IMG/VR virus record: IMGVR_UViG_3300031576_000024
Location: 1 to 64,000 of that record
Length of the DNA: 64,000 nucleotides
From: a virus
Direction: 5' to 3' (one strand)
Within the stretch, counting starts at the first letter, position 1. Each line of letters opens with the position of its first letter. Positions 1,973 through 59,357 of this stretch are shown in pieces. The notes under the pieces are model-generated. The model worked only from the letters and a program-made list of their open reading frames with translations. It ran no database searches and was not told the origin of the DNA. The translations under genes were made by a program, and so were the position numbers.

Positions 1973-4099
1973 ATGCGAATATTAGTAACAGGTGGAGCAG
2001 GGTTGATCGGGTATCACGCTGCTATGTACTACAAGAACAGGGGCTACGATGTTGTGGTCCTTGATAACCTTGAGCGGTGCGAACTTCTAGGACATAAAGT
2101 ATCTAGTAAGCGTCAGTATTTTAATCTAGATGCTTTGAGAGCTGCTGACATACACTGGATTAACGCTGATATCAGTAATCCTAAGGTATTTGATTGGTTA
2201 GATGTTCGTGACCGTTTTGATTACATTCTACACTTCGCTGGACAGTGTGGGGTGCCTACGTCAATTGAGAATCCTCGTAGAGACATGGAAGTCAATTACA
2301 TAGGCACCTTTAATGTTCTGGAGTTTGCTAGACGTACAGGAGCAGCGGTAGCGTTTGCTTCTACAAACAAGGTCTATCCTATCCATGACGTATTTGTAAA
2401 GAATGAGAATAAGGAGCGTTGGGAATTCGCCAACCGTACTTGGTCGCTCACTGGTTTCCCGGTGACGAACGACTTGGACGGCAGCCGGACGCCCTATGGT
2501 GCCTCCAAGTACGCCGCTGACGTGCTGTGCCAAGAATACGCACACACCTACGGTGTCAGGACGGGTGTTTTTCGCATGAGCTGTCTTGCAGAGTGGCAGC
2601 TTGTTTCTACTTATTTTGGCACTAAAATGATTTCTGATATAAGACCCGAAGACTTAGTATGGACAGGTAAGAATTGGACTAAAGTTATTAACTGTTGGAA
2701 TAATGGTAAAAAATATATATTTGAATTAACCACTAAAAATGGATATAAACTTAATTTAACGGCAGATCATAGAGTTAAAGTAGTAAATGGATTTAGGCAA
2801 TTAAAAGATTTGATGCATGGAGATTTAGTTGAAGTGTCTCCGCAAACATCCTTGCCTGCGCCTTATAATGAAAAAGAATGTCATAAAGCTGAATTGTTAG
2901 GGTACCTTTTTGGCGACGGGACTTTGTATAAAGTTAAAAATAAACCTAATTCTTACATAATAAGTTTTTATGGTTCAAAAACTGCTTTAATTAATATAAA
3001 AAATACTCTTAATATATTAGGTATTGATCCGGGAAATATAGTTTCTAGCTACAGCAATAGTGACGTAGCTACCGGTACAAGCTATAAGTTACATTTTTCT
3101 AATAGTCTCTTTGGTCAAGAATTGATTACAATGGGGATGCCAATTGGCGATAAGACTTCTCAAGCCATTGATGTGCCAACCTACATAAAGGATGGATCTG
3201 TTTTCTTGAAAAGAGCGTTCTTGAGAGGTTACTTCGGCGCAGAGTGCTGTGCTCCTTCACATAAAGACACATGTATTACATTTTCACACAGTAAAGATAT
3301 AAATATAACATCAGATAAATTTATATCTTCTGTTCGTGATATTCTTTATAAAGACTTCCACATAGAAACTTCTGTAACTGTTAAGCCTCCTAAGGTTTGG
3401 AAAACACGCACTACAGTACAAACTAATGTGCGCATTGTAGGCGGCGTTAAAGGAAGAACTGCGTTTAATAATATAGGATTTGCTTTTGAAGAAAAACGAA
3501 ATAAGATATTATTAACAAGATTAAGATTGTTAGAATATGATGATAGAATCTTTGATTCTATCGACTCTATCGAATATAAAGCACACGGCTACGTGTACGA
3601 CCTAGAAGTAGAAGACACTTCTCATGTATTTACGGCTGGGAATATTATAGTACACAACTGCATCTACGGCCCGAATCAGGTTCTCTCGTTTTCCGAGCAA
3701 GGTTGGGCGAGCTGGTTCAGCCTTGCGACCCTGAAAAGCTGGCCTTTGACTGTCTACGGTGACGGCGATCAGGTCCGAGACATGCTCTATGTAGAAGACT
3801 GTGTGCGCGCCTATGACTACTTCTTAAGATCCAAGATAAAGCACGGGGTATGGAACCTGGGTGGTGGTGTACAGAACACAACCACCCTGAATCAGCACCT
3901 ACGCTTGATGGAACGAATTACAGGCAAGCGCTCCGCAGTGTCTTTTGAAGATTGGCGTCCTAGCGATCAGAAGTGCTATGTCTCTGATATTCTTCCCATT
4001 AAGAAAGACTTAGGATGGGAACCACTAGTTAACCCTGAAGAGGGTCTGATTAAGGTAACGGAATTCTTTAAGAACAACCTAGACTTGTTCGAGGAATAG
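1973..4099 (+). CDS. CDP-paratose 2-epimerase-like sugar nucleotide epimerase, interrupted by an intein
   Basis: The precursor has 708 residues. The exteins form a short-chain dehydrogenase/reductase-type epimerase: GGAGLIG NAD-binding motif at 7-13, STNKVY at 130-135, and catalytic YGASK at 175-179. After the intein come CIYGPNQ, QGWASWF, YGDGDQVRDMLYVEDC and DWRPSDQ. The pair 'RMSCIYGP..Q' plus 'DWRP.DQ' is characteristic of CDP-paratose/tyvelose epimerases (RfbE-like). Joined exteins give about 349 residues, the normal length. The reaction would invert C2 of a dideoxy sugar nucleotide, or a related step; substrate is inferred. Residues 204-562 are a self-splicing intein. The gene ends just before a strong terminator region. 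Confidence 0.85.
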   Translation: MRILVTGGAGLIGYHAAMYYKNRGYDVVVLDNLERCELLGHKVSSKRQYFNLDALRAADIHWINADISNPKVFDWLDVRDRFDYILHFAGQCGVPTSIENPRRDMEVNYIGTFNVLEFARRTGAAVAFASTNKVYPIHDVFVKNENKERWEFANRTWSLTGFPVTNDLDGSRTPYGASKYAADVLCQEYAHTYGVRTGVFRMSCLAEWQLVSTYFGTKMISDIRPEDLVWTGKNWTKVINCWNNGKKYIFELTTKNGYKLNLTADHRVKVVNGFRQLKDLMHGDLVEVSPQTSLPAPYNEKECHKAELLGYLFGDGTLYKVKNKPNSYIISFYGSKTALINIKNTLNILGIDPGNIVSSYSNSDVATGTSYKLHFSNSLFGQELITMGMPIGDKTSQAIDVPTYIKDGSVFLKRAFLRGYFGAECCAPSHKDTCITFSHSKDINITSDKFISSVRDILYKDFHIETSVTVKPPKVWKTRTTVQTNVRIVGGVKGRTAFNNIGFAFEEKRNKILLTRLRLLEYDDRIFDSIDSIEYKAHGYVYDLEVEDTSHVFTAGNIIVHNCIYGPNQVLSFSEQGWASWFSLATLKSWPLTVYGDGDQVRDMLYVEDCVRAYDYFLRSKIKHGVWNLGGGVQNTTTLNQHLRLMERITGKRSAVSFEDWRPSDQKCYVSDILPIKKDLGWEPLVNPEEGLIKVTEFFKNNLDLFEE
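2582..3658 (+). mobile_element. LAGLIDADG-type intein inside the epimerase (359 residues)
   Basis: The intein begins at Cys204 of the precursor and ends at His-Asn (561-562), followed by Cys as the +1 extein residue. These are the canonical splicing residues. It contains a block-B-like TADH (263-266), a first LAGLIDADG-like helix LLGYLFGDG (308-316), a second helix FLRGYFGAE, and a C-terminal block YVYDLEVEDTSHVF then IIVHN. It is much AT-richer than the exteins, and composition changes sharply at both borders. Removing it restores the continuous conserved motif RMS/CIYGP, so boundaries are precise. All splicing residues are present, so it should be active. Confidence 0.93.
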
Positions 4100-4203: not shown

Positions 4204-4242
4204 AAAGCCGGTACAGGATTTACCCGTACCGGCTTTTCTTTT
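4204..4242 (+). terminator. Rho-independent terminator for rightward transcription
   Basis: A perfect stem GCCGGTAC (4207-4214) and GTACCGGC (4226-4233) with an 11-base loop is followed by TTTTCTTTT. It would stop transcription from the epimerase cluster before it meets the convergent leftward genes. Confidence 0.85.
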
Positions 4243-4588
4243 ATAGCGGAATACCTAGCTTTAGTGCGTTTAACGCAATTCCTTGCGCCGCATCCAGTGT
4301 TAGGATCAGTTCATCACCTTCACTCCAAGTGAAGCCTAATGCACCTTCTCTTCCGTCATTCGCTGACAATCCTAAAGTATCATTTTCCTTAAATTGCACG
4401 GTGAATCTACCATTGTTAATTTCAGGAGGCAAAGCTTTTAAGGACTCCATACTCAGTGCGATATTAACAATCTGTCTAATAGGTTCACATTCACCCGTTG
4501 TGAACCTCATTAGCCCACCATTTCTGGTGAGCGTTATGACGCCTCTAACATGCGTAACACTGTAGCCGTTAATCGTTTGTTGACTCAT
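4241..4588 (-). CDS. Hypothetical small protein
   Basis: About 115 residues, beta-rich in appearance, no recognised domain. The ATG at 4588 is preceded by GGAGGAAG, so it is preferred over the in-frame upstream start at 4606. The start lies inside the end of the upstream gene, giving a 20-base overlap. It is the last gene of the leftward early-type operon and ends at the terminator. Confidence 0.65.
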   Translation of the reverse strand: MSQQTINGYSVTHVRGVITLTRNGGLMRFTTGECEPIRQIVNIALSMESLKALPPEINNGRFTVQFKENDTLGLSANDGREGALGFTWSEGDELILTLDAAQGIALNALKLGIPL

Positions 4589-5198
4589 CGGTTTCTTCCT
4601 CCGCACGCTTCATTCCAGCGCGGAACTCTTCTTCCTTGGCTGCAATCTCGGGATTTTCACCTAGGAAGAATTCACGAGCTACCTTTGACGGGAATTCACG
4701 GGGCGGATTGGTTACGAACACTGAACGCTCAGGGTCAAGAACGTTGCGGCGTCTGGAAGTATCCTTCTGGACAACCGTTTCATACTTACCGATGAAGCGC
4801 TTGATGGTAGCACACTTTTCTTTCAGCATGTTAACACCAAGTTGTTCATTTACATTATGAACTTGCTCAGGTTCTAGCTTAAGGCCCTGTCTAGCGGCAA
4901 GGTCTGTATAAGACTTAACCTTGCTGTTTAGCAGATCCTCACGCTTCTTCAGAGTCTTCTGAAGAGTCTCTAGAGCTTGATTCTCATAGGGTCGATCAGT
5001 GTTGAAAAGGAATATGCCTTCTGTATCAAGGATCTCATATACCGCTTCTTCACCGGCCGTACCAGGGCGATAGTCTTCAAACTGTGCCATCGTAATGTCA
5101 ACCTGACCAAAAGCCGGGATTGTAATAACAACGCCCTTCTCATAAGCAAGTTGCACGTCCCACGGTGTCGGATTCATGAGCTTGGCAGCAAACGCCAT
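4569..5198 (-). CDS. Hypothetical protein with coiled-coil middle
   Basis: The 209-residue protein begins MAFAAKLMNPTPWDV and contains a charged helical region (roughly residues 75-105) and an acidic C-terminus rich in Glu. No enzyme motif is seen. It follows the HTH gene by 2 bases and is presumably co-transcribed with it from the promoter near 5470. Function unknown. Confidence 0.65.
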   Translation of the reverse strand: MAFAAKLMNPTPWDVQLAYEKGVVITIPAFGQVDITMAQFEDYRPGTAGEEAVYEILDTEGIFLFNTDRPYENQALETLQKTLKKREDLLNSKVKSYTDLAARQGLKLEPEQVHNVNEQLGVNMLKEKCATIKRFIGKYETVVQKDTSRRRNVLDPERSVFVTNPPREFPSKVAREFFLGENPEIAAKEEEFRAGMKRAEEETDESTND

Positions 5199-5200
5199 AT

Positions 5201-5425
5201 CTATACCTCTTCTACATTAAACGGAACTTCTGTCGATTCTACGGTAACAACTGTACCGCTGGGCCGACGGCCGCGCTTACGCAGAGTTACACCATTCTTC
5301 TTTAGCACGGTTCGGATTGAGCCACTTGATACGCTGAACGAATCAGCAATCTCACGAAGGCTCTTGCTCTGTAATACATAAGCCGTAACTATTTCATCTG
5401 TCTTGTCAAGTAGTTTAGCACTCAT
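5201..5425 (-). CDS. Helix-turn-helix DNA-binding protein
   Basis: The 74-residue protein has a recognisable HTH: SLREIADSFSVSSGSIRTVL (about residues 22-41), followed by a basic segment RKRGRRPSG resembling an AT-hook. It is the first gene after a promoter-like element and is likely a phage transcription regulator (inference). A SD-like AAGGGGA precedes the ATG. Confidence 0.7.
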   Translation of the reverse strand: MSAKLLDKTDEIVTAYVLQSKSLREIADSFSVSSGSIRTVLKKNGVTLRKRGRRPSGTVVTVESTEVPFNVEEV

Positions 5426-27173: not shown

Positions 27174-27434
27174 GTGTGGGAATTTTCGGCTGAAGAAATC
27201 CAGGCGTGGGTAGCTGCTAGTAATGTTGTTACCGCGCCTGTTCTCATTAAGGGTATAACATACCGCTGTGATAGCTGTAAGCGGTTCATGTCGGCCCTTG
27301 AAATGAGAGTAGAGTACAGCACGTTCTACTCCCATTTGACAAAAGAGTGTCTGACTAAGTTCGCTAACAAACACATGAAGAACTTAGACTTATCTAAAGC
27401 ACCGCAACAAATTCAAGTAACAGGAGACGTTTAA
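27174..27434 (+). CDS. Small zinc-finger-type protein
   Basis: 86 residues with YRCDSCKRF, then a histidine and TKEC about 20 residues later, suggesting a C2HC-type zinc site. Start GTG 27174. It overlaps the reductase start by one base. Function unknown. Confidence 0.55.
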   Translation: MWEFSAEEIQAWVAASNVVTAPVLIKGITYRCDSCKRFMSALEMRVEYSTFYSHLTKECLTKFANKHMKNLDLSKAPQQIQVTGDV

Positions 27435-29029
27435 TGTCTAAATTAGGTCGATTCGCGGAAACTATTTTTGTTCGTACATACGCCGCAACGCATGACGAAA
27501 CTTGGGATGGTTGCGCAAGACGGGTAGCTGATTACGTAGCAGGCGACGATTACAAACATTTGGCAGATGACTTTTACAAGGCTATCTCTGAGCGTAAGTT
27601 CATGCCTGGAGGGCGATATCTAGCCCAAGCTGGTAAGGATATCCCCCAGCTAACCAATTGTTTCCTTTTGAGCGCAGAGGATTCCAGAGAAGGGTGGGCT
27701 CAACTGCTTAGGAAGCACATGATGGCATTATCTACCGGAGGCGGGGTCGGCACATGGTACGGAGACGTAAGACCGTCTGGACAGCCGATTAAGCGGTTTG
27801 GCGGGGTATCCAGTGGCCCTCTCGCCCTCATGTTCATGGTAAACGAGGTTGCACGTCACGTACTCTCGGGCGGGAAGCGTCGTAGCGCCTTATGGGCTGG
27901 ACTACCTTGGAACCACGGCGATATCGAAAAGTTCATTGTATCTAAGAACTGGTCTACAGCTATTCGGTCAATGAAGGAAAGTGACTTTAACTTCCCGGCT
28001 ACGTTGGACATGACAAACATCAGCGTGGCTCTAAATGATGAATTCTTCCAGAAGGTGAACAAAGATGATAAGGTATGGGACATCTACTATCGGGTCTGCA
28101 AAAACATGTGCAAAACAGGAGAACCGGGCTTTAGCATTGACACAGGAGTTAACGCTAAAGATGTTCTTCGGAATCCTTGTACGGAAGTTGTGTCGGCTAC
28201 TGATTCTGACTGCTGTAATCTTGGTTCTATCAATCTAGCGAGGGTCAATGATATTGACGAACTAAAGAAGCTTACAAGACTTGCTGTAAAGTTTCTGTAC
28301 CTGGGGACATTTCGTAGCTGGATGCCGGACGAATCGTTTGCTAAGATCCGCGAGAGGGATCGCCGGATCGGCCTGGGTATCATGGGTCTGCACGAGTGGT
28401 GCATAAGACATGGAGAAAGATATGAGCCTAACGGCGAACTCGGCAAGTGGCTTGCTGCTTGGGCGAATATTAGCGACGATGAGGCCGTTAAATTCAGTAA
28501 GGGAAAGGGAGCAAAGCCCGTTGCAGTTAGAGCAATCGCCCCAACGGGCACTATCGGAATTATAGCAGAAACAACGACAGGAATAGAACCTGTATTTTGC
28601 GTAGCCTATAAGAGACGCTGGCTTGGCACTGACGGACAGTGGGCCTCAGAATACGTTGTAGATCCTACAGTGAAGCGCCTACTAGATGAGGGTATCATTC
28701 AAGATCCCAATGACATTGAGGATTCAATCAAGCTAGCTCGGCATGTTGAACGTCGCATTCGGATGCAAGCCTTCGTTCAATCCTTCGTGGATCAGGGTAT
28801 CTCCAGTACGATTAACCTTCCTGAATACGGAGAGGCTGGTAATAACAATGTCAAGCAATTTGCTGAAACCCTTTTGGAATATTTGCCGAAGCTTAGAGGA
28901 ATCACTGTTTATCCTGATGGTGCCCGCCCTGGTCAACCTATTACTAGCGTAAAGTGGGAGACAGCTATTAAGCACGCTAAAGTCGAAGAACCAGAAGACA
29001 AGTGCTCCCAAGGCGCGTGCGGCATCTGA
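27434..29029 (+). CDS. nrdJ: Adenosylcobalamin-dependent (class II) ribonucleotide reductase
   Basis: 531 residues. It has LTNCFLLS near residue 75, STGGGVG, the NPCTEV segment, DCCNLGSINLAR, and a C-terminal redox pair CSQGAC. The single-polypeptide form with no separate NrdB radical subunit nearby fits the B12-dependent class. It converts ribonucleotides to deoxyribonucleotides for phage replication. Located directly upstream of the MazG, ThyX and dNTP-hydrolase genes. Confidence 0.85.
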   Translation: MSKLGRFAETIFVRTYAATHDETWDGCARRVADYVAGDDYKHLADDFYKAISERKFMPGGRYLAQAGKDIPQLTNCFLLSAEDSREGWAQLLRKHMMALSTGGGVGTWYGDVRPSGQPIKRFGGVSSGPLALMFMVNEVARHVLSGGKRRSALWAGLPWNHGDIEKFIVSKNWSTAIRSMKESDFNFPATLDMTNISVALNDEFFQKVNKDDKVWDIYYRVCKNMCKTGEPGFSIDTGVNAKDVLRNPCTEVVSATDSDCCNLGSINLARVNDIDELKKLTRLAVKFLYLGTFRSWMPDESFAKIRERDRRIGLGIMGLHEWCIRHGERYEPNGELGKWLAAWANISDDEAVKFSKGKGAKPVAVRAIAPTGTIGIIAETTTGIEPVFCVAYKRRWLGTDGQWASEYVVDPTVKRLLDEGIIQDPNDIEDSIKLARHVERRIRMQAFVQSFVDQGISSTINLPEYGEAGNNNVKQFAETLLEYLPKLRGITVYPDGARPGQPITSVKWETAIKHAKVEEPEDKCSQGACGI

Positions 29030-30983: not shown

Positions 30984-31369
30984 AGAAGCAGAAATACTTT
31001 GATGGATTCGGCAACCTAGAGGATGTTATTAGAGACTTTGAGATCGACACCGATCTTAATGACCGTAACATTCTATTTGCTTCTTATGCTACAGAGGCTT
31101 ATGAAGGAAGTGCGTTCGTCCTATTTAAGAGAGACAAGAAGCTCTATGAAGTCAATGGTTCACACTGCTCGTGCTACGGCCTAGAGGGTCAGTGGGAGCC
31201 GGAAGAGACTTCATGGGATGCGCTGGCAATGCGAATAAAGGTTGATGCTACCTTAAAGGGTAGTAACATGAATAAAATAAGAGTAAATATTTATGGTGTT
31301 GCTCCTGAAGGCGTACCGTATCTAGTTGAGCTAATCAAGAAGAACGTGAAGGTAAAAGATGCCGTTTGA
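30980..31369 (+). CDS. Conserved phage protein of unknown function
   Basis: 129 residues with ILFASYATEAYEGSAFVLF and LYEVNGSHCSCYGLEGQWEP, a pattern I recognise from many phage hypothetical proteins. No activity is known to me. It overlaps the large glycosyltransferase gene by 11 bases. Confidence 0.65.
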   Translation: MKKQKYFDGFGNLEDVIRDFEIDTDLNDRNILFASYATEAYEGSAFVLFKRDKKLYEVNGSHCSCYGLEGQWEPEETSWDALAMRIKVDATLKGSNMNKIRVNIYGVAPEGVPYLVELIKKNVKVKDAV

Positions 31370-34300
31370 TAGAACGGGTAAATGGACGGAGCCTGGATCG
31401 GAAACCGAATCCGAGTTCGTAAATGCTATTACGGCTCAGTCAAGTGACGGGCAGGAAGTTGCACTTACTCCCGACGTGGTGGCTAAGATCGAGGCTGCCA
31501 TCCGTTCCAACGTTGGTGACAACAAAAACGTTGGCCGGCTCAACACACTTTCCTACTCCACCTTAGCTAGTGTAGTTAATAGTCCTGGGCATGTAAGCGT
31601 TGTCATCCCTATCTACGGCGCTCTCAATCTAGTTAAGAAGGCCATTGAGTCTGTATTCAAACATACCTATTGGCCCTTTGAGCTTATCCTAGTTGACGAC
31701 TGTTCTCCTGATCCTGCTGTCCGTGACTACCTTAAGACGCTGGAAGGTCAGAACAAGTCTGACAAGTGCATAGGATTGAAGGTTATCTGCAACAAGAAGA
31801 ACAAGGGCTTCGCTGCCACCTGTAACATCGGCATGAACGTCGGCACGGGTAAGTATTTCTGCGTTCTCAATTCGGACGTTCTAGTTACTCCCTACTGGTT
31901 AACCAAAATGGTTACTGCCGTAGAGGCTGATAAGTCACATGTCATTGTTAATCCGGTAACCAATAATACGGCCCTGATTAACGTGCAGATGGAACCTGGT
32001 AGATCGTATCTGGATATGAACCGTGCGCTCGAACGTAAATCACCTAAGAACTATCCTGAGATTATGCCTACCGGCTTCTGCTTGTTCTTCAAGCGTAGTC
32101 TCTTAGAAAGGATAGGAGGGTTCGATGAAGCCTACGTTTCCTACGGGGAGGATACGCACTTCTGGTTCCAATCTCTTAAGCTCACCTCTGATAGCGGTGA
32201 GTACCTTGGCAACAAAGCTGTCATGGCTGACGATTGTTACATCTTCCATGAACGTAGCAGCAGCTTCAATCAAGTAAGTTCAGATGAACATATGGGCCTT
32301 CGGCGTTCTGGCTCGGAGCGTTTCCACAAGCTAAATCCTTCTTATGCAGACTGGAAGAATGGCTACAATGTTAACAAGGTCATGTCAGAGATCCGCTCCA
32401 AGACACCCGACTCACTGTTTGACCACGATTACAAGTACAATTGCGTTTGGGTTGTAAAATCAGCCGACTTCTGCGGTGGTATGAAGTACATAGCAGACAT
32501 TGTAAATGAGCTAATTGAGCAGAATGTCAACGCTAAGGTTTGTGTTATCAAGAACACTCCTGACGCTCCTGAGAATGTCCTCAATGATCTACATACTGCG
32601 CCTATCTTCTTTAAGGATGCAGAAGACTTTGTAACTAACTTCTCCACGCGCTGCTTTACCAACGGTGTCGTAATTGCCGCTGTATCTGAACTTGTGTCGC
32701 CCGTAGGCATCCTTTGTCAGCGCATACAAAGTCTTACTCCTATTCATCACATTCAGTCATACGATCCTGAGCTTACTGCCATTCCTGAGTTAGCCGCAGA
32801 GCAAGCTCAAGCATATGGAAAGCTACGTTATTCCATATCGTCAAGTAACTGGATCACTGAACATCTACAGAAGGAAGGCGTTAAAAACATCATCTTCACT
32901 ACTCAACCGGGCGTTGATACGGACCTATTCCATCATGGCGACCGAAGCCGTGGCGACGATAGGTTTACCGTGATGATAGCTTTGAACGCTCAATATCCTT
33001 TCAAGGGTGCTGAGCGCGGCATTGAGGTTGCCAAAGAGATTATCAAGCGGGACAAAAATATCCGCGTCCTAGGATTGGGTATGGACTTCATTCCCGATTG
33101 TCCGGCCATTGTAGGACTCGGTAAATTGTCACAAGGACGCTTGGCGCACCTCCTACGCACTGAGGTAGATGTGTTTATAGATCCAAGCTACATTCACAGT
33201 TACGGCATGCCTAGTTTGGAAGCTCTTGCTTGTGGCGTTGAAGTTGTCTGCTGGAATAACCGAGGCATTGGTGAGTACGCGAGCAATAAGTTTAACGGCG
33301 TTCATATCTTCATGCAGAACGTGATACCCGAAGAACTAGCCGATAGGTGTCTAAAGATTAAGGAGAATAAGTCCGCAGTCACTCTAGTTCCCTTATCAAG
33401 AGAAGACAGTGTTAATAGCTTCACTAATCACTTTGAAATAAACTTAGGTCTGGTACCATTCAAGAAACGGATTACTGTAGTCACCCCTCACGCACGCAAA
33501 CACGGTGGCCCGACTACGATCATTAATTTCGCTAACGTCTTGGGTTACTTGGGACACGATGCGCGCCTAGTATCAATCTATGACGATTTCAACAATGAAG
33601 TAATAAGCTTCAAGCAAGTTCCGCTATTCATAGGCGTTGATTACATTAAAGAGTCTGACATGGTTGTTATCAACTCTGATAATCCGTTCATTGAGCAGAT
33701 TGTCAATCAGCCTTCACTTAAACATGCCAAGAAGGTACTTCTAAAGCTCAGCCACAATCCTCGCTTTAAGGCCATAGAAGAAGCTAGCTTGCGCATGCCC
33801 ATATGGGATAAGATACTTTGTTCCACAGAGCATCTACGTGAGAAGTGTATCAATCCTATGCCTGATTGGCGTCACATTGCGTGGAGCCCCGATAAGGTTC
33901 AAACTATCGGCTGGTATCATTACACGTTCCCTGTGTTCAACGCTCCCCCGGAGACGAGACAGTACGGGGTCATTGACAAGCAGATGCGTATTGGGTATCT
34001 TATGCACGACCATCCCACAAAGGGGACGACGTTCGCCAATGCCATCGTCAAGGCTCTTAAGAACAAGTATGGCGCTAACGTAGACATCGTGACCGTTGGT
34101 GAGGTAGCGCTTAAGTATAAGCCGCCGTGGATGACTTACGTGTTCAAACCTAACCGCCCTGAAATGGCACAGGTAATGAAGCAGTGCGATATCTGGTTGG
34201 GAAGCTCCTTCAACGAAGGACTAGGACGTATGACACTGGAAGCTATGGCAGCGGGTTGCGCTATCGTAACTACCGACACTGGTGCAGAATTCCTTAAAGA

Positions 34301-34493
34301 CCAAGAGAACTGTTTACTATACCCTCCCGGTGAGGCACAACAAGGCGGTGAAGCTGTAGATAAGCTACTATCAGATCCTAAGCTCTTCCAGAAACTAATC
34401 AATAACGGCTACCAAACAGCAGGTAAGGCAGCAGACCCGCACCAGTATGTACATACATTGAGGCAACTAGTACATGAACTATGCAAAACCTAG
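31359..34493 (+). CDS. Three-domain glycosyltransferase (GT2 + two GT4-like domains)
   Basis: 1044 residues. A family 2 domain spans about 75-330: VSVVIPIYG (79-87), DDC (113-115), an NSD metal motif (171-173) and GED (263-265). Two GT4-like GT-B domains follow, the first about 350-690 with GMPSLEALACGVEVV, the second about 705-1040 with VVTPHARKHGGP at its start and FNEGLGRMTLEAMAAGCAIV. It could build most of a short glycan by itself. Acceptor unknown. Starts the second glycan cluster. Confidence 0.85.
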   Translation: MPFDRTGKWTEPGSETESEFVNAITAQSSDGQEVALTPDVVAKIEAAIRSNVGDNKNVGRLNTLSYSTLASVVNSPGHVSVVIPIYGALNLVKKAIESVFKHTYWPFELILVDDCSPDPAVRDYLKTLEGQNKSDKCIGLKVICNKKNKGFAATCNIGMNVGTGKYFCVLNSDVLVTPYWLTKMVTAVEADKSHVIVNPVTNNTALINVQMEPGRSYLDMNRALERKSPKNYPEIMPTGFCLFFKRSLLERIGGFDEAYVSYGEDTHFWFQSLKLTSDSGEYLGNKAVMADDCYIFHERSSSFNQVSSDEHMGLRRSGSERFHKLNPSYADWKNGYNVNKVMSEIRSKTPDSLFDHDYKYNCVWVVKSADFCGGMKYIADIVNELIEQNVNAKVCVIKNTPDAPENVLNDLHTAPIFFKDAEDFVTNFSTRCFTNGVVIAAVSELVSPVGILCQRIQSLTPIHHIQSYDPELTAIPELAAEQAQAYGKLRYSISSSNWITEHLQKEGVKNIIFTTQPGVDTDLFHHGDRSRGDDRFTVMIALNAQYPFKGAERGIEVAKEIIKRDKNIRVLGLGMDFIPDCPAIVGLGKLSQGRLAHLLRTEVDVFIDPSYIHSYGMPSLEALACGVEVVCWNNRGIGEYASNKFNGVHIFMQNVIPEELADRCLKIKENKSAVTLVPLSREDSVNSFTNHFEINLGLVPFKKRITVVTPHARKHGGPTTIINFANVLGYLGHDARLVSIYDDFNNEVISFKQVPLFIGVDYIKESDMVVINSDNPFIEQIVNQPSLKHAKKVLLKLSHNPRFKAIEEASLRMPIWDKILCSTEHLREKCINPMPDWRHIAWSPDKVQTIGWYHYTFPVFNAPPETRQYGVIDKQMRIGYLMHDHPTKGTTFANAIVKALKNKYGANVDIVTVGEVALKYKPPWMTYVFKPNRPEMAQVMKQCDIWLGSSFNEGLGRMTLEAMAAGCAIVTTDTGAEFLKDQENCLLYPPGEAQQGGEAVDKLLSDPKLFQKLINNGYQTAGKAADPHQYVHTLRQLVHELCKT

Positions 34494-36566: not shown

Positions 36567-37471
36567 TGAAGATACTACTTGCTAAACATCTATGGGACTA
36601 CGAAGGTACGCCTATCGCTACCTACGCTACATCCCTGTCCAGAGCTTTCACACAGGCTGGACACGAAGTCACAGAGATAGATAAGCAGATCATCCTAGAT
36701 GATAGCGTTTACAGGGCACACGATCTTCTGTTCGATATTGACTGCGGTAAGGATATGAAGGGGGATCAGAAGTTTCACCTTTGCCATCCTAAGATCCAGT
36801 CCCTAATTAAGACTGTCTTCTTTGCAATAGACTCGCACGGAAATGCTGATATGCACCAACGACTGTCACGCTCCGCAGACTATGTATTCTTTGCTATATG
36901 GGATAAGCGCGACCTGTTCGCCGACCATCCTTCAGCTACTTGGACTCCAAGTTTCACGGATCTTGCTTACTTCGACGGTGAAACGTTTACCTCGGAGAAG
37001 ACAAAGGACTTCTGCTTCCTAGGCTCCCTTGGCGGGCTTGATAGAGCAGATCCTATGGTGAAAGCGTGCAAAGACAATAACTGGACTTTCGACGTGGATG
37101 AAGTAGGCCGTAAGGGAAAGCACACATGGCCCAGGACCGCTGAGCGCATGGGTGCTTGCAGGTTCGGGTTCAACCACGGACAGAAGCACGACGGACCTAA
37201 CCTGCGTACTATAGAGACGATGGCTATGAAGTTGCCGCTTATCTGCGACCAAGACACGCGAGACGGCAAAGGTTTCCTCTTCGAGCCTTGGCAGCACTAC
37301 ATTCCCTACAAGGCGTATTCGTATGAGGGACTGCTGGAGCGCATGCAGTGGTGCATGACAAACCCCGATAAGGCTGCTAAGATTGCCAAGCAAGCATATG
37401 ATGAAGTGTGCCTAAACCACCTGGCCTCGCACCGCGTACAGACTATACTGGAGGTAGTATGCAAATCCTGA
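36566..37471 (+). CDS. CgeB-like GT-B glycosyltransferase
   Basis: 301 residues. The layout (MKILLAKHLWDYEGTPIA, FDIDCG, VFFAIDSHG, DFCFLGSLGG, GFNHGQKHDGPNLRTIETMA) resembles the CgeB / DUF3880-type glycosyltransferases, where the GPNLR.IE.MA segment corresponds to the nucleotide-sugar site. Probable sugar transfer; donor and acceptor unknown. Confidence 0.75.
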   Translation: MKILLAKHLWDYEGTPIATYATSLSRAFTQAGHEVTEIDKQIILDDSVYRAHDLLFDIDCGKDMKGDQKFHLCHPKIQSLIKTVFFAIDSHGNADMHQRLSRSADYVFFAIWDKRDLFADHPSATWTPSFTDLAYFDGETFTSEKTKDFCFLGSLGGLDRADPMVKACKDNNWTFDVDEVGRKGKHTWPRTAERMGACRFGFNHGQKHDGPNLRTIETMAMKLPLICDQDTRDGKGFLFEPWQHYIPYKAYSYEGLLERMQWCMTNPDKAAKIAKQAYDEVCLNHLASHRVQTILEVVCKS

Positions 37472-38211
37472 TGTTCACACCTGCCCACAAGGATGAGTTC
37501 ATAGCCAAGGCCAAGACCATGAAGAAGCGTTACCCTGAAGTAACTATTGTCTATGATCTAGAAGACGGTGTGCCCGCGACAGAGAAGAAGCGGGCCTTTG
37601 AGAACGTGAAGAAGCACGCCCGTACAAAGGATTGGGTTCGCATTGACGACAACATGACATATGAGTTATACGACCTACCTACCGTACAAGCCATAGTCAT
37701 TCCTAAAGTCACGCCTTACGTACTTGACCGTTACGTCGATATGGACGGTCGAAACAGCTTTGGCTGTGATAGAGTAATCGCTCTCATTGAAACTGCTGCT
37801 GGCGTTGACGCTGCTAGTTACATTGCCGAGAAGGCTGGCGGTGTCATATTTGGGCAATATGATTTCATATTATCAATGAATTCCGAACTACACACTGACT
37901 ACGCTAGATCACGGATCTTGAATGCATGCAAGGCTGCTGGCATTCCTGTGTATGACAGCCCTGACTACTCCCTGGACTTAAACACGATCATGCATAACGC
38001 TAGGCAGGCGTACTGCCTAGGCTTTGACGGCATGGCAGTTCTACATCCTGACCATATCAAGATCGTGAAGGAAAACTTTAGAGCGCCTTACAACCAGAGA
38101 GTATGGGCGAAGGGTATCTTGAAGAACGCTGGAGACGGACTGACTGTCTTCCAGAACACAATCATCGGCCCGCCCATAGTTAAGCGTGCCAAGCAAATAC
38201 TACAGAAATGA
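37459..38211 (+). CDS. HpcH/HpaI aldolase / CitE-like lyase
   Basis: About 250 residues from ATG 37459, which follows TGGAGG. VYDLEDGVP, an RIDD segment, VIPKV, ALIETAAGV and GGVIFGQYDF give the CitE-like TIM-barrel pattern with Asp/Glu metal ligands. Such enzymes cleave or condense pyruvate- or acyl-CoA-derived units. In this glycan cluster it may make or modify a sugar side group (inference). Confidence 0.75.
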   Translation: MQILMFTPAHKDEFIAKAKTMKKRYPEVTIVYDLEDGVPATEKKRAFENVKKHARTKDWVRIDDNMTYELYDLPTVQAIVIPKVTPYVLDRYVDMDGRNSFGCDRVIALIETAAGVDAASYIAEKAGGVIFGQYDFILSMNSELHTDYARSRILNACKAAGIPVYDSPDYSLDLNTIMHNARQAYCLGFDGMAVLHPDHIKIVKENFRAPYNQRVWAKGILKNAGDGLTVFQNTIIGPPIVKRAKQILQK

Positions 38212-58751: not shown

Positions 58752-59357
58752 TTACTCCTTTATTGAAAAGCCTGTTTTACCATGTTTTATCTTAGAAACA
58801 TGTGTTTGGTGTACACCAAATCTTTTTGCTATATCAGTAACTCTGTCACCGTTAGACAAAGCCTGTTTTATATCTAATAACCTTTGTTTGATTTCTAGCG
58901 GAACATCTCTCCTTTGACAAGTTGACATATTCTGTCTCGCTACACCTGATATCTTTCTACCAAGCTGTGCTTGACTTTGCTTTAATTTAGCCTCTAAAGA
59001 TCGCTTCTTACCTTTATTAGCTTTAGAAATCTTCTGTCTAACTAACTCAGGCATACTATCATGAGATAGGTTACCTTTACTTAGTATATTATATCCAAAT
59101 GGACTTAATGAATTAAATCGCTTAATCAATTCTTCCTCCATAGCATTTGCTGTGTCAGAGGAACAATGTGATGTGTAAATTACTACTAATTTATCAAGAC
59201 CATGTTTATTAATAGCATTAGTCAATAAATAACCTCTGCCACAATTAGCATTATACACATGTCTTGAAATACGATCTAACGGGTATTTTGTAGTTTGACC
59301 TACATAATGTTTACCGTTCATCGTATTCTTTATAACGTATAGTGAACGATCCGTCAT
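58752..59357 (-). CDS. GIY-YIG homing endonuclease
   Basis: 201 residues. The N-terminal domain has SLYVIKNTMNGKHYVGQT (GIY-YIG variants), then RISRH (catalytic Arg) and MEEELIKRF with glutamate near 76. Helical DNA-binding repeats follow (NKGKKRS..AKLKQSQAQLG, NUMOD3 type). An HTH closes it (RVTDIAKRFGVHQTHVSKIK). It is AT-rich and sits between two capsid-region genes, overlapping the upstream one by four bases. Confidence 0.85.
   Translation of the reverse strand: MTDRSLYVIKNTMNGKHYVGQTTKYPLDRISRHVYNANCGRGYLLTNAINKHGLDKLVVIYTSHCSSDTANAMEEELIKRFNSLSPFGYNILSKGNLSHDSMPELVRQKISKANKGKKRSLEAKLKQSQAQLGRKISGVARQNMSTCQRRDVPLEIKQRLLDIKQALSNGDRVTDIAKRFGVHQTHVSKIKHGKTGFSIKE

Follow-up and report, generated by a model that had tools for sequence, protein, structure and literature searches.

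A class 1 LAGLIDADG intein in a phage sugar-nucleotide epimerase and its same-site relatives in Bacteria and Archaea

Our analysis reveals that an epimerase gene of a phage is interrupted by a complete intein with a LAGLIDADG homing-endonuclease domain, and that epimerase genes of a bacterium and an Asgard archaeon carry inteins at the identical codon boundary, with which the phage element forms one clade. The window analysed comprises bases 1–64,000 of an 82,991-base IMG/VR virus record, and the interrupted gene occupies positions 1973–4099 of its plus strand. We hold with high confidence the full reading, namely that a class 1 LAGLIDADG intein in a phage epimerase would splice through Cys1 and the +1 Cys, would spread by homing, and would represent one old allele of the epimerase site. 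The element itself is an ordinary intein, but its host protein is unusual, and it is of interest chiefly because inteins occupy the same site across domains.

The intein, its insertion site and the interrupted epimerase

The gene encodes 708 aa in a single open frame without a stop codon. An in-frame insert of 359 codons (Table 1) divides it into two exteins, which both match CDP-tyvelose 2-epimerases, with the alignments to PDB 9rl0 (1.2e-48) and 1orr (4.7e-41) being split by the insert, in agreement with the CDP-paratose-2-epimerase-like protein of the original prediction. The N-extein contains the Rossmann motif TGGAGLIG, the motif STNKVY and Y175xxxK179, and ends in VFRMS. The SDR active-site residues T131, Y175 and K179 are invariant with the relatives, and every extein residue that is invariant among the relatives is retained in the phage gene. 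By homology, the extein is CDP-paratose/tyvelose-2-epimerase-like, with other NDP-sugar epimerase reactions being possible. The intein is positioned between Ser203 and Cys204 of the epimerase, inside the RMS/CIYGP motif; the structure model of the precursor, which is of moderate confidence (pLDDT 64), is not reliable enough around the junction to show where the insertion site lies relative to the active site.

The insert starts with TGT (Cys) and ends with CAC AAC (His-Asn), followed by TGC (Cys), and the originally predicted boundaries (2582–3658) turned out to be exact, with the last Asn codon at 3656–3658. When the insert alone was searched, Pfam returned PF14890 (Intein_splicing, 1.8e-14) and PF14528 (LAGLIDADG_3, 5.7e-06), both passing the curated cut-offs, and NCBIfam returned TIGR01445 (N-terminal, 9.3e-06) and TIGR01443 (C-terminal, 4.1e-05), which also pass theirs. 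The AlphaFold model of the insert, which is of moderate confidence (pLDDT 67), is most similar to the TliVMA, PhoVMA and PI-SceI inteins (best E 2.5e-14), and its Foldseek matches to VMA, DnaB and RecA inteins (probability 1.00) point to a HINT splicing fold. Furthermore, the insert and its flank have Cys1, a block B TxxH, the block F His, the terminal His-Asn and a +1 Cys, as in class 1 inteins, together with two LAGLIDADG helices bearing the acidic residues Asp112 (GDG) and Glu221 (GAE). Altogether, the models above cut-off and the full set of splicing residues bear out the earlier claim of a complete class 1 LAGLIDADG intein.

Table 1. Positions of the intein, its motifs and the surrounding epimerase segments in the window
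Feature	Position	Strand	Evidence
N-extein, 203 aa, CDP-paratose/tyvelose-2-epimerase-like extended SDR	1973–2581	+	Pfam Epimerase 1.7e-39; phmmer to 9rl0/1orr; alignment with intein-free relatives
GC3-rich extein tract, 5' part (possible co-conversion tract)	2411–2581	+	GC3 of extein residues 147–287
Class 1 intein of 359 aa containing a LAGLIDADG homing-endonuclease domain	2582–3658	+	PF14890, PF14528, TIGR01445, TIGR01443, AlphaFold model
Cys1, block A nucleophile	2582–2584	+	Sequence; invariant in 3/3 same-site inteins
Block B, T60-A-D-H63	2759–2770	+	Sequence; T60, D62 and H63 invariant in 3/3 same-site inteins
End of first LAGLIDADG helix, LLGYLFGDG, acidic Asp112	2891–2920	+	Alignment with same-site, RtcB and RNA-polymerase inteins
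End of second LAGLIDADG helix, FLRGYFGAEC, acidic Glu221	3218–3247	+	Alignment with other inteins
Block F/G, His348 ... I-I-V-H358-N359	3623–3658	+	TIGR01443 match; H348, H358 and N359 invariant in 3/3 same-site inteins
C-extein, 146 aa, epimerase	3659–4096	+	Stop codon 4097–4099
+1 Cys of C-extein	3659–3661	+	Equivalent to the conserved Cys of CIYGP in epimerases without an intein
GC3-rich extein tract, 3' part (possible co-conversion tract)	3659–3910	+	GC3 of extein residues 147–287

Relatives of both exteins, 58–61% identical to them, are encoded on three viral contigs, and in each of the three the two halves are contiguous (VFRMS-CIYGPNQ) with no gap. A codon-degenerate scan for FRMSCIYGP recovered these three and two further viral contigs, i.e. 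five intein-free viral relatives in total, in which the homologous exteins lack the insertion at the exact site; their continuity there confirms that the insertion lies within the conserved RMS/CIYGP motif, as had been proposed. At least two of them (L002 and L017) match the genes downstream in the window (4241–5214) in the same order by tblastx, and therefore are, judged by this synteny, the same kind of phage with the same locus devoid of the intein. Alignment to intact epimerases had been put forward as a check of the original prediction, and the spliced 349-aa sequence aligns with the intein-free relatives without any residue of the insert being needed. Given these five insert-free viral epimerases, removal of the 359 residues is predicted to restore an ordinary 349-aa enzyme.

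Splicing would proceed by an N-S shift at Cys1 and transfer to the +1 Cys, after which cyclisation of Asn359, helped by His358, and an S-N shift would follow, so that the intein would be excised after translation and the 349-aa epimerase would be formed. On its residues, the phage intein very probably splices, and it can soundly be concluded that formation of the epimerase would depend on this predicted protein splicing. The gene could instead be a broken relic, with a non-splicing intein and an inactive epimerase, yet nothing speaks directly for such a state beyond the insert-free syntenic relatives, from which it is clear that the lineage can do without the element; given that all 708 codons are open and that the splicing residues and the relative-invariant extein residues are all kept, we regard a relic as extremely improbable.

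Same-site inteins in cellular genomes and their descent

Scanning about 85,000 genomes of a GTDB-based collection for the codons of HNCIYGxxQ, a pattern that demands His-Asn-Cys-Ile-Tyr-Gly-x-x-Gln and that same-site inteins with other ends would escape, yielded 29 matches, 27 of which are due to chance or out of context, while two are in frame within epimerase ORFs. One is a 451-aa intein in the Planctomycetales MAG contig SBAZ01000065.1 (L020), the other a 442-aa intein in the Lokiarchaeota MAG contig JAHLWH010000192.1 (L047); both are placed after FRMS and before CIYG, with a codon boundary identical to that in the phage. The taxon names of the two MAGs are those of their record titles. The Planctomycetales contig also carries genes for PriA and uracil-DNA glycosylase and the Lokiarchaeota contig one for a GT87-type glycosyltransferase, and these neighbours argue for cellular rather than viral contigs, though both contigs belong to MAGs, whose binning is putative. 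The class 1 splicing residues are invariant among the three copies where compared.

Among viruses, searches of IMG/VR for close relatives of the intein, using single-sequence and three-row profile patterns, confirmed none, and the patterns HNCIYGP and HNCIYGxxQ gave only chance matches outside any epimerase in viral contigs. Searches of GenBank phages and plasmids returned epimerases only, with no record in which one place covers 80% of the precursor. The best phage match by tblastn, MT839817, seemed to extend into the extein and was rejected, as its intein lies in a helicase. In this unannotated gut phage scaffold (MT839817.1, L008), the helicase-like protein interrupted by the LAGLIDADG intein is encoded at positions 3–2546, has a P-loop (GRAGSGKS) near its N-terminus and adjoins a RecA-like gene.

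The phage and Lokiarchaeota inteins are 26% identical over the whole length (BLASTP 2e-36), and the phage and Planctomycetales inteins 28% across alignment columns 1–289; between the two cellular copies, identity is 31%. Because the copies share so little identity, the epimerase-site allele is, on this divergence, old. Profile searches of 227 genomes of the Lokiarchaeota copy's phylum and 384 of the Planctomycetales copy's phylum detected related inteins at two sites of RtcB, in RNA polymerase subunits and in a radical-SAM-like protein, the exteins being named by the motifs that flank each intein. No additional epimerase intein exceeded the threshold in the same genomes.

When 41 inteins were placed in a tree, those of the three epimerases grouped as one clade (100/99), separate from the inteins of RtcB, RNA polymerase and the radical-SAM-like protein. 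As the three also served to build the search profile, sampling favours similar inteins, yet the tree was free to split them. Independent arrival of the three at a favoured target, with no shared descent as one epimerase allele, would be in line with the low identity of 26–31%, the long branches and the relatedness of the whole group to RtcB inteins. The clade, however, retains a support of 98–99 after dropping either cellular intein, and all three epimerase inteins end in VHN and are devoid of the C-terminal extension of RtcB inteins, which makes independent arrival very unlikely. Hence, on these alignments and the tree, the three same-site inteins share common descent and constitute one epimerase-specific allele that is present in a virus as well as in Bacteria and Archaea. 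The RtcB-family model NF038162 of NCBIfam matches the phage intein (113 bits, 8.6e-33, residues 91–323), but assignment to that family was rejected, the extein being an epimerase and the clade a separate one.

The phage extein is 59–61% identical to intein-free phage epimerases versus 42–45% to the intein-bearing cellular epimerases, and therefore presence of the intein does not follow the extein. Either transfer into the phage lineage or repeated loss is needed, and horizontal transfer is the simpler reading since the element carries an endonuclease. Its occurrence at the identical spot in genes of a phage, an Asgard archaeon and a bacterium indicates that the same-site segment is a mobile element, which would have crossed between very different hosts.

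Base composition, homing and the state of the endonuclease

The original prediction contrasted an AT-rich intein with exteins that are not, and took this as a sign of recent arrival. The intein is indeed AT-rich (GC 0.335, GC3 0.25, versus 0.473 and 0.48 in the N-extein and 0.491 and 0.58 in the C-extein), whereas the extein GC3 is a mosaic, being 0.69 in residues 147–287, a segment that spans the insertion site 203/204, and 0.40 elsewhere, so that the statement on the exteins is only partly right. The conclusion on age is not supported, as the genes directly upstream (64–1962; GC 0.32–0.41) match the intein in AT content, and in both cellular genes, too, the same-site intein is richer in AT than the exteins around it (GC3 0.73 versus 0.85–0.96, and 0.09 versus 0.16–0.21). 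The intein may nonetheless have entered this phage lineage recently, since there are syntenic relatives without it.

The GC3-rich segment stands out with a z of 5.2, which 0 of 300 permutations reach, while other window genes stay at or below 3.5. As flanking DNA copied during homing would leave such a tract, we infer that it is a co-conversion trace of homing; in haloarchaea, co-conversion of residues flanking an intein has been described (PMC10643990). No similar GC3 peak was seen at the site in the epimerase relatives, and no donor of the tract stands out by codon identity, which is not clearly raised towards any one relative. In homing, the endonuclease would cut the intact RMS/CIYG codons of intein-free epimerase genes, and the intein would then be copied in by double-strand-break repair. 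We infer homing for the phage intein, and its endonuclease is, from the sequence, probably active.

The phage copy is devoid of about 48 aa before the first LAGLIDADG helix, i.e. between the splicing and endonuclease domains, a stretch that is present in the same-site, RtcB, RNA-polymerase and radical-SAM inteins; in the Lokiarchaeota copy it looks helical and could, as a guess, be a DNA-binding extension. Because of this missing stretch, the endonuclease of the phage copy could be weakened. If the splicing domain works and the endonuclease has decayed, the intein would be a passively inherited, non-mobile passenger in the phage, and a phage copy shorter than the same-site copies by 83–92 aa, on the longest branch of the tree (2.24), would fit such decay as well. 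Yet both helices and both acidic residues are kept, PF14528 passes its cut-off, the predicted fold of the endonuclease half is that of a LAGLIDADG domain, and many active LAGLIDADG nucleases have no additional DNA-binding segment. Decay is thus possible but unlikely, and we favour an endonuclease that would still support homing. It is quite doubtful that, through homing in genes of glycan biosynthesis, phages carry the epimerase-specific allele between viruses, Bacteria and Asgard archaea while its splicing gates the timing of modified-sugar production.

Glycan setting and relation to known inteins

A GT17-like gene lies just upstream of the epimerase, and the phage furthermore encodes a polysaccharide deacetylase, several glycosyltransferases and a UDP-glucose/GDP-mannose dehydrogenase. 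Since the phage is rich in glycan genes, the epimerase plausibly helps to make a modified glycan of the surface or the virion. The glycan set is large for an 83-kb phage record. A 1044-aa GT2/GT1 fusion of a family-2 and a group-1 glycosyltransferase (31359–34493, +) is located near more glycosyltransferases and the dehydrogenase, and the glycan cluster also holds an HpcH/HpaI aldolase/citrate-lyase-like protein (37408–38211, +; 2.4e-14), an odd enzyme for a phage. A GIY-YIG endonuclease-like ORF among the structural genes (58752–59357, −; PF01541, 5.5e-09) is possibly a second, free-standing homing endonuclease of the same phage. The large subunit of ribonucleotide reductase (RNR; 27434–29029, +), a common intein host, is intein-free here and shows a weak match to the class II (B12) insertion domain.

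Inteins are generally regarded as concentrated in proteins of replication, repair, transcription and packaging, a bias on which explanations draw. That an intein occupies one codon of a carbohydrate-enzyme gene in organisms as different as a phage, a bacterium and an archaeon suggests that conservation of the DNA target suffices for an allele to persist, and that persistence of a homing allele would need no replication-gene host. The system also offers a natural case for testing whether phages transfer inteins and whether co-conversion accompanies it, for which the syntenic phages without the intein can serve as controls. In the open-access literature searched, we found no report of a natural intein in a sugar-nucleotide epimerase, and the extein class is unusual for phages, as originally stated.

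Inteins that carry LAGLIDADG endonucleases and interrupt conserved motifs are well known, from phages too (for conserved sites, PMC2814812), and those surveyed in mycobacteriophage occur in terminase, RNR, helicase, methylase, portal and other proteins (PMC5050341). Like the element described here, these surveyed inteins are phage-borne, often carry a homing endonuclease and sit in conserved active-site motifs; however, their exteins act on nucleic acids, nucleotides or packaging, whereas here the extein is a sugar-nucleotide epimerase. The closest structural matches to the whole phage intein are the VMA inteins PI-SceI, TliVMA and PhoVMA, which interrupt a V-ATPase subunit and are 11–18% identical to it. 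RtcB-family inteins have the endonuclease lineage, block order and LAGLIDADG motifs in common with the phage intein, but differ in extein and site, in their length of about 510 aa, in a VSN end and in a C-terminal extension. Finally, the nearest solved relatives of the spliced extein, the CDP-tyvelose (paratose) 2-epimerases 1orr and 9rl0, are intein-free and have a Ser at the +1 position (FRHS-SMYG), where the phage enzyme has a Cys.
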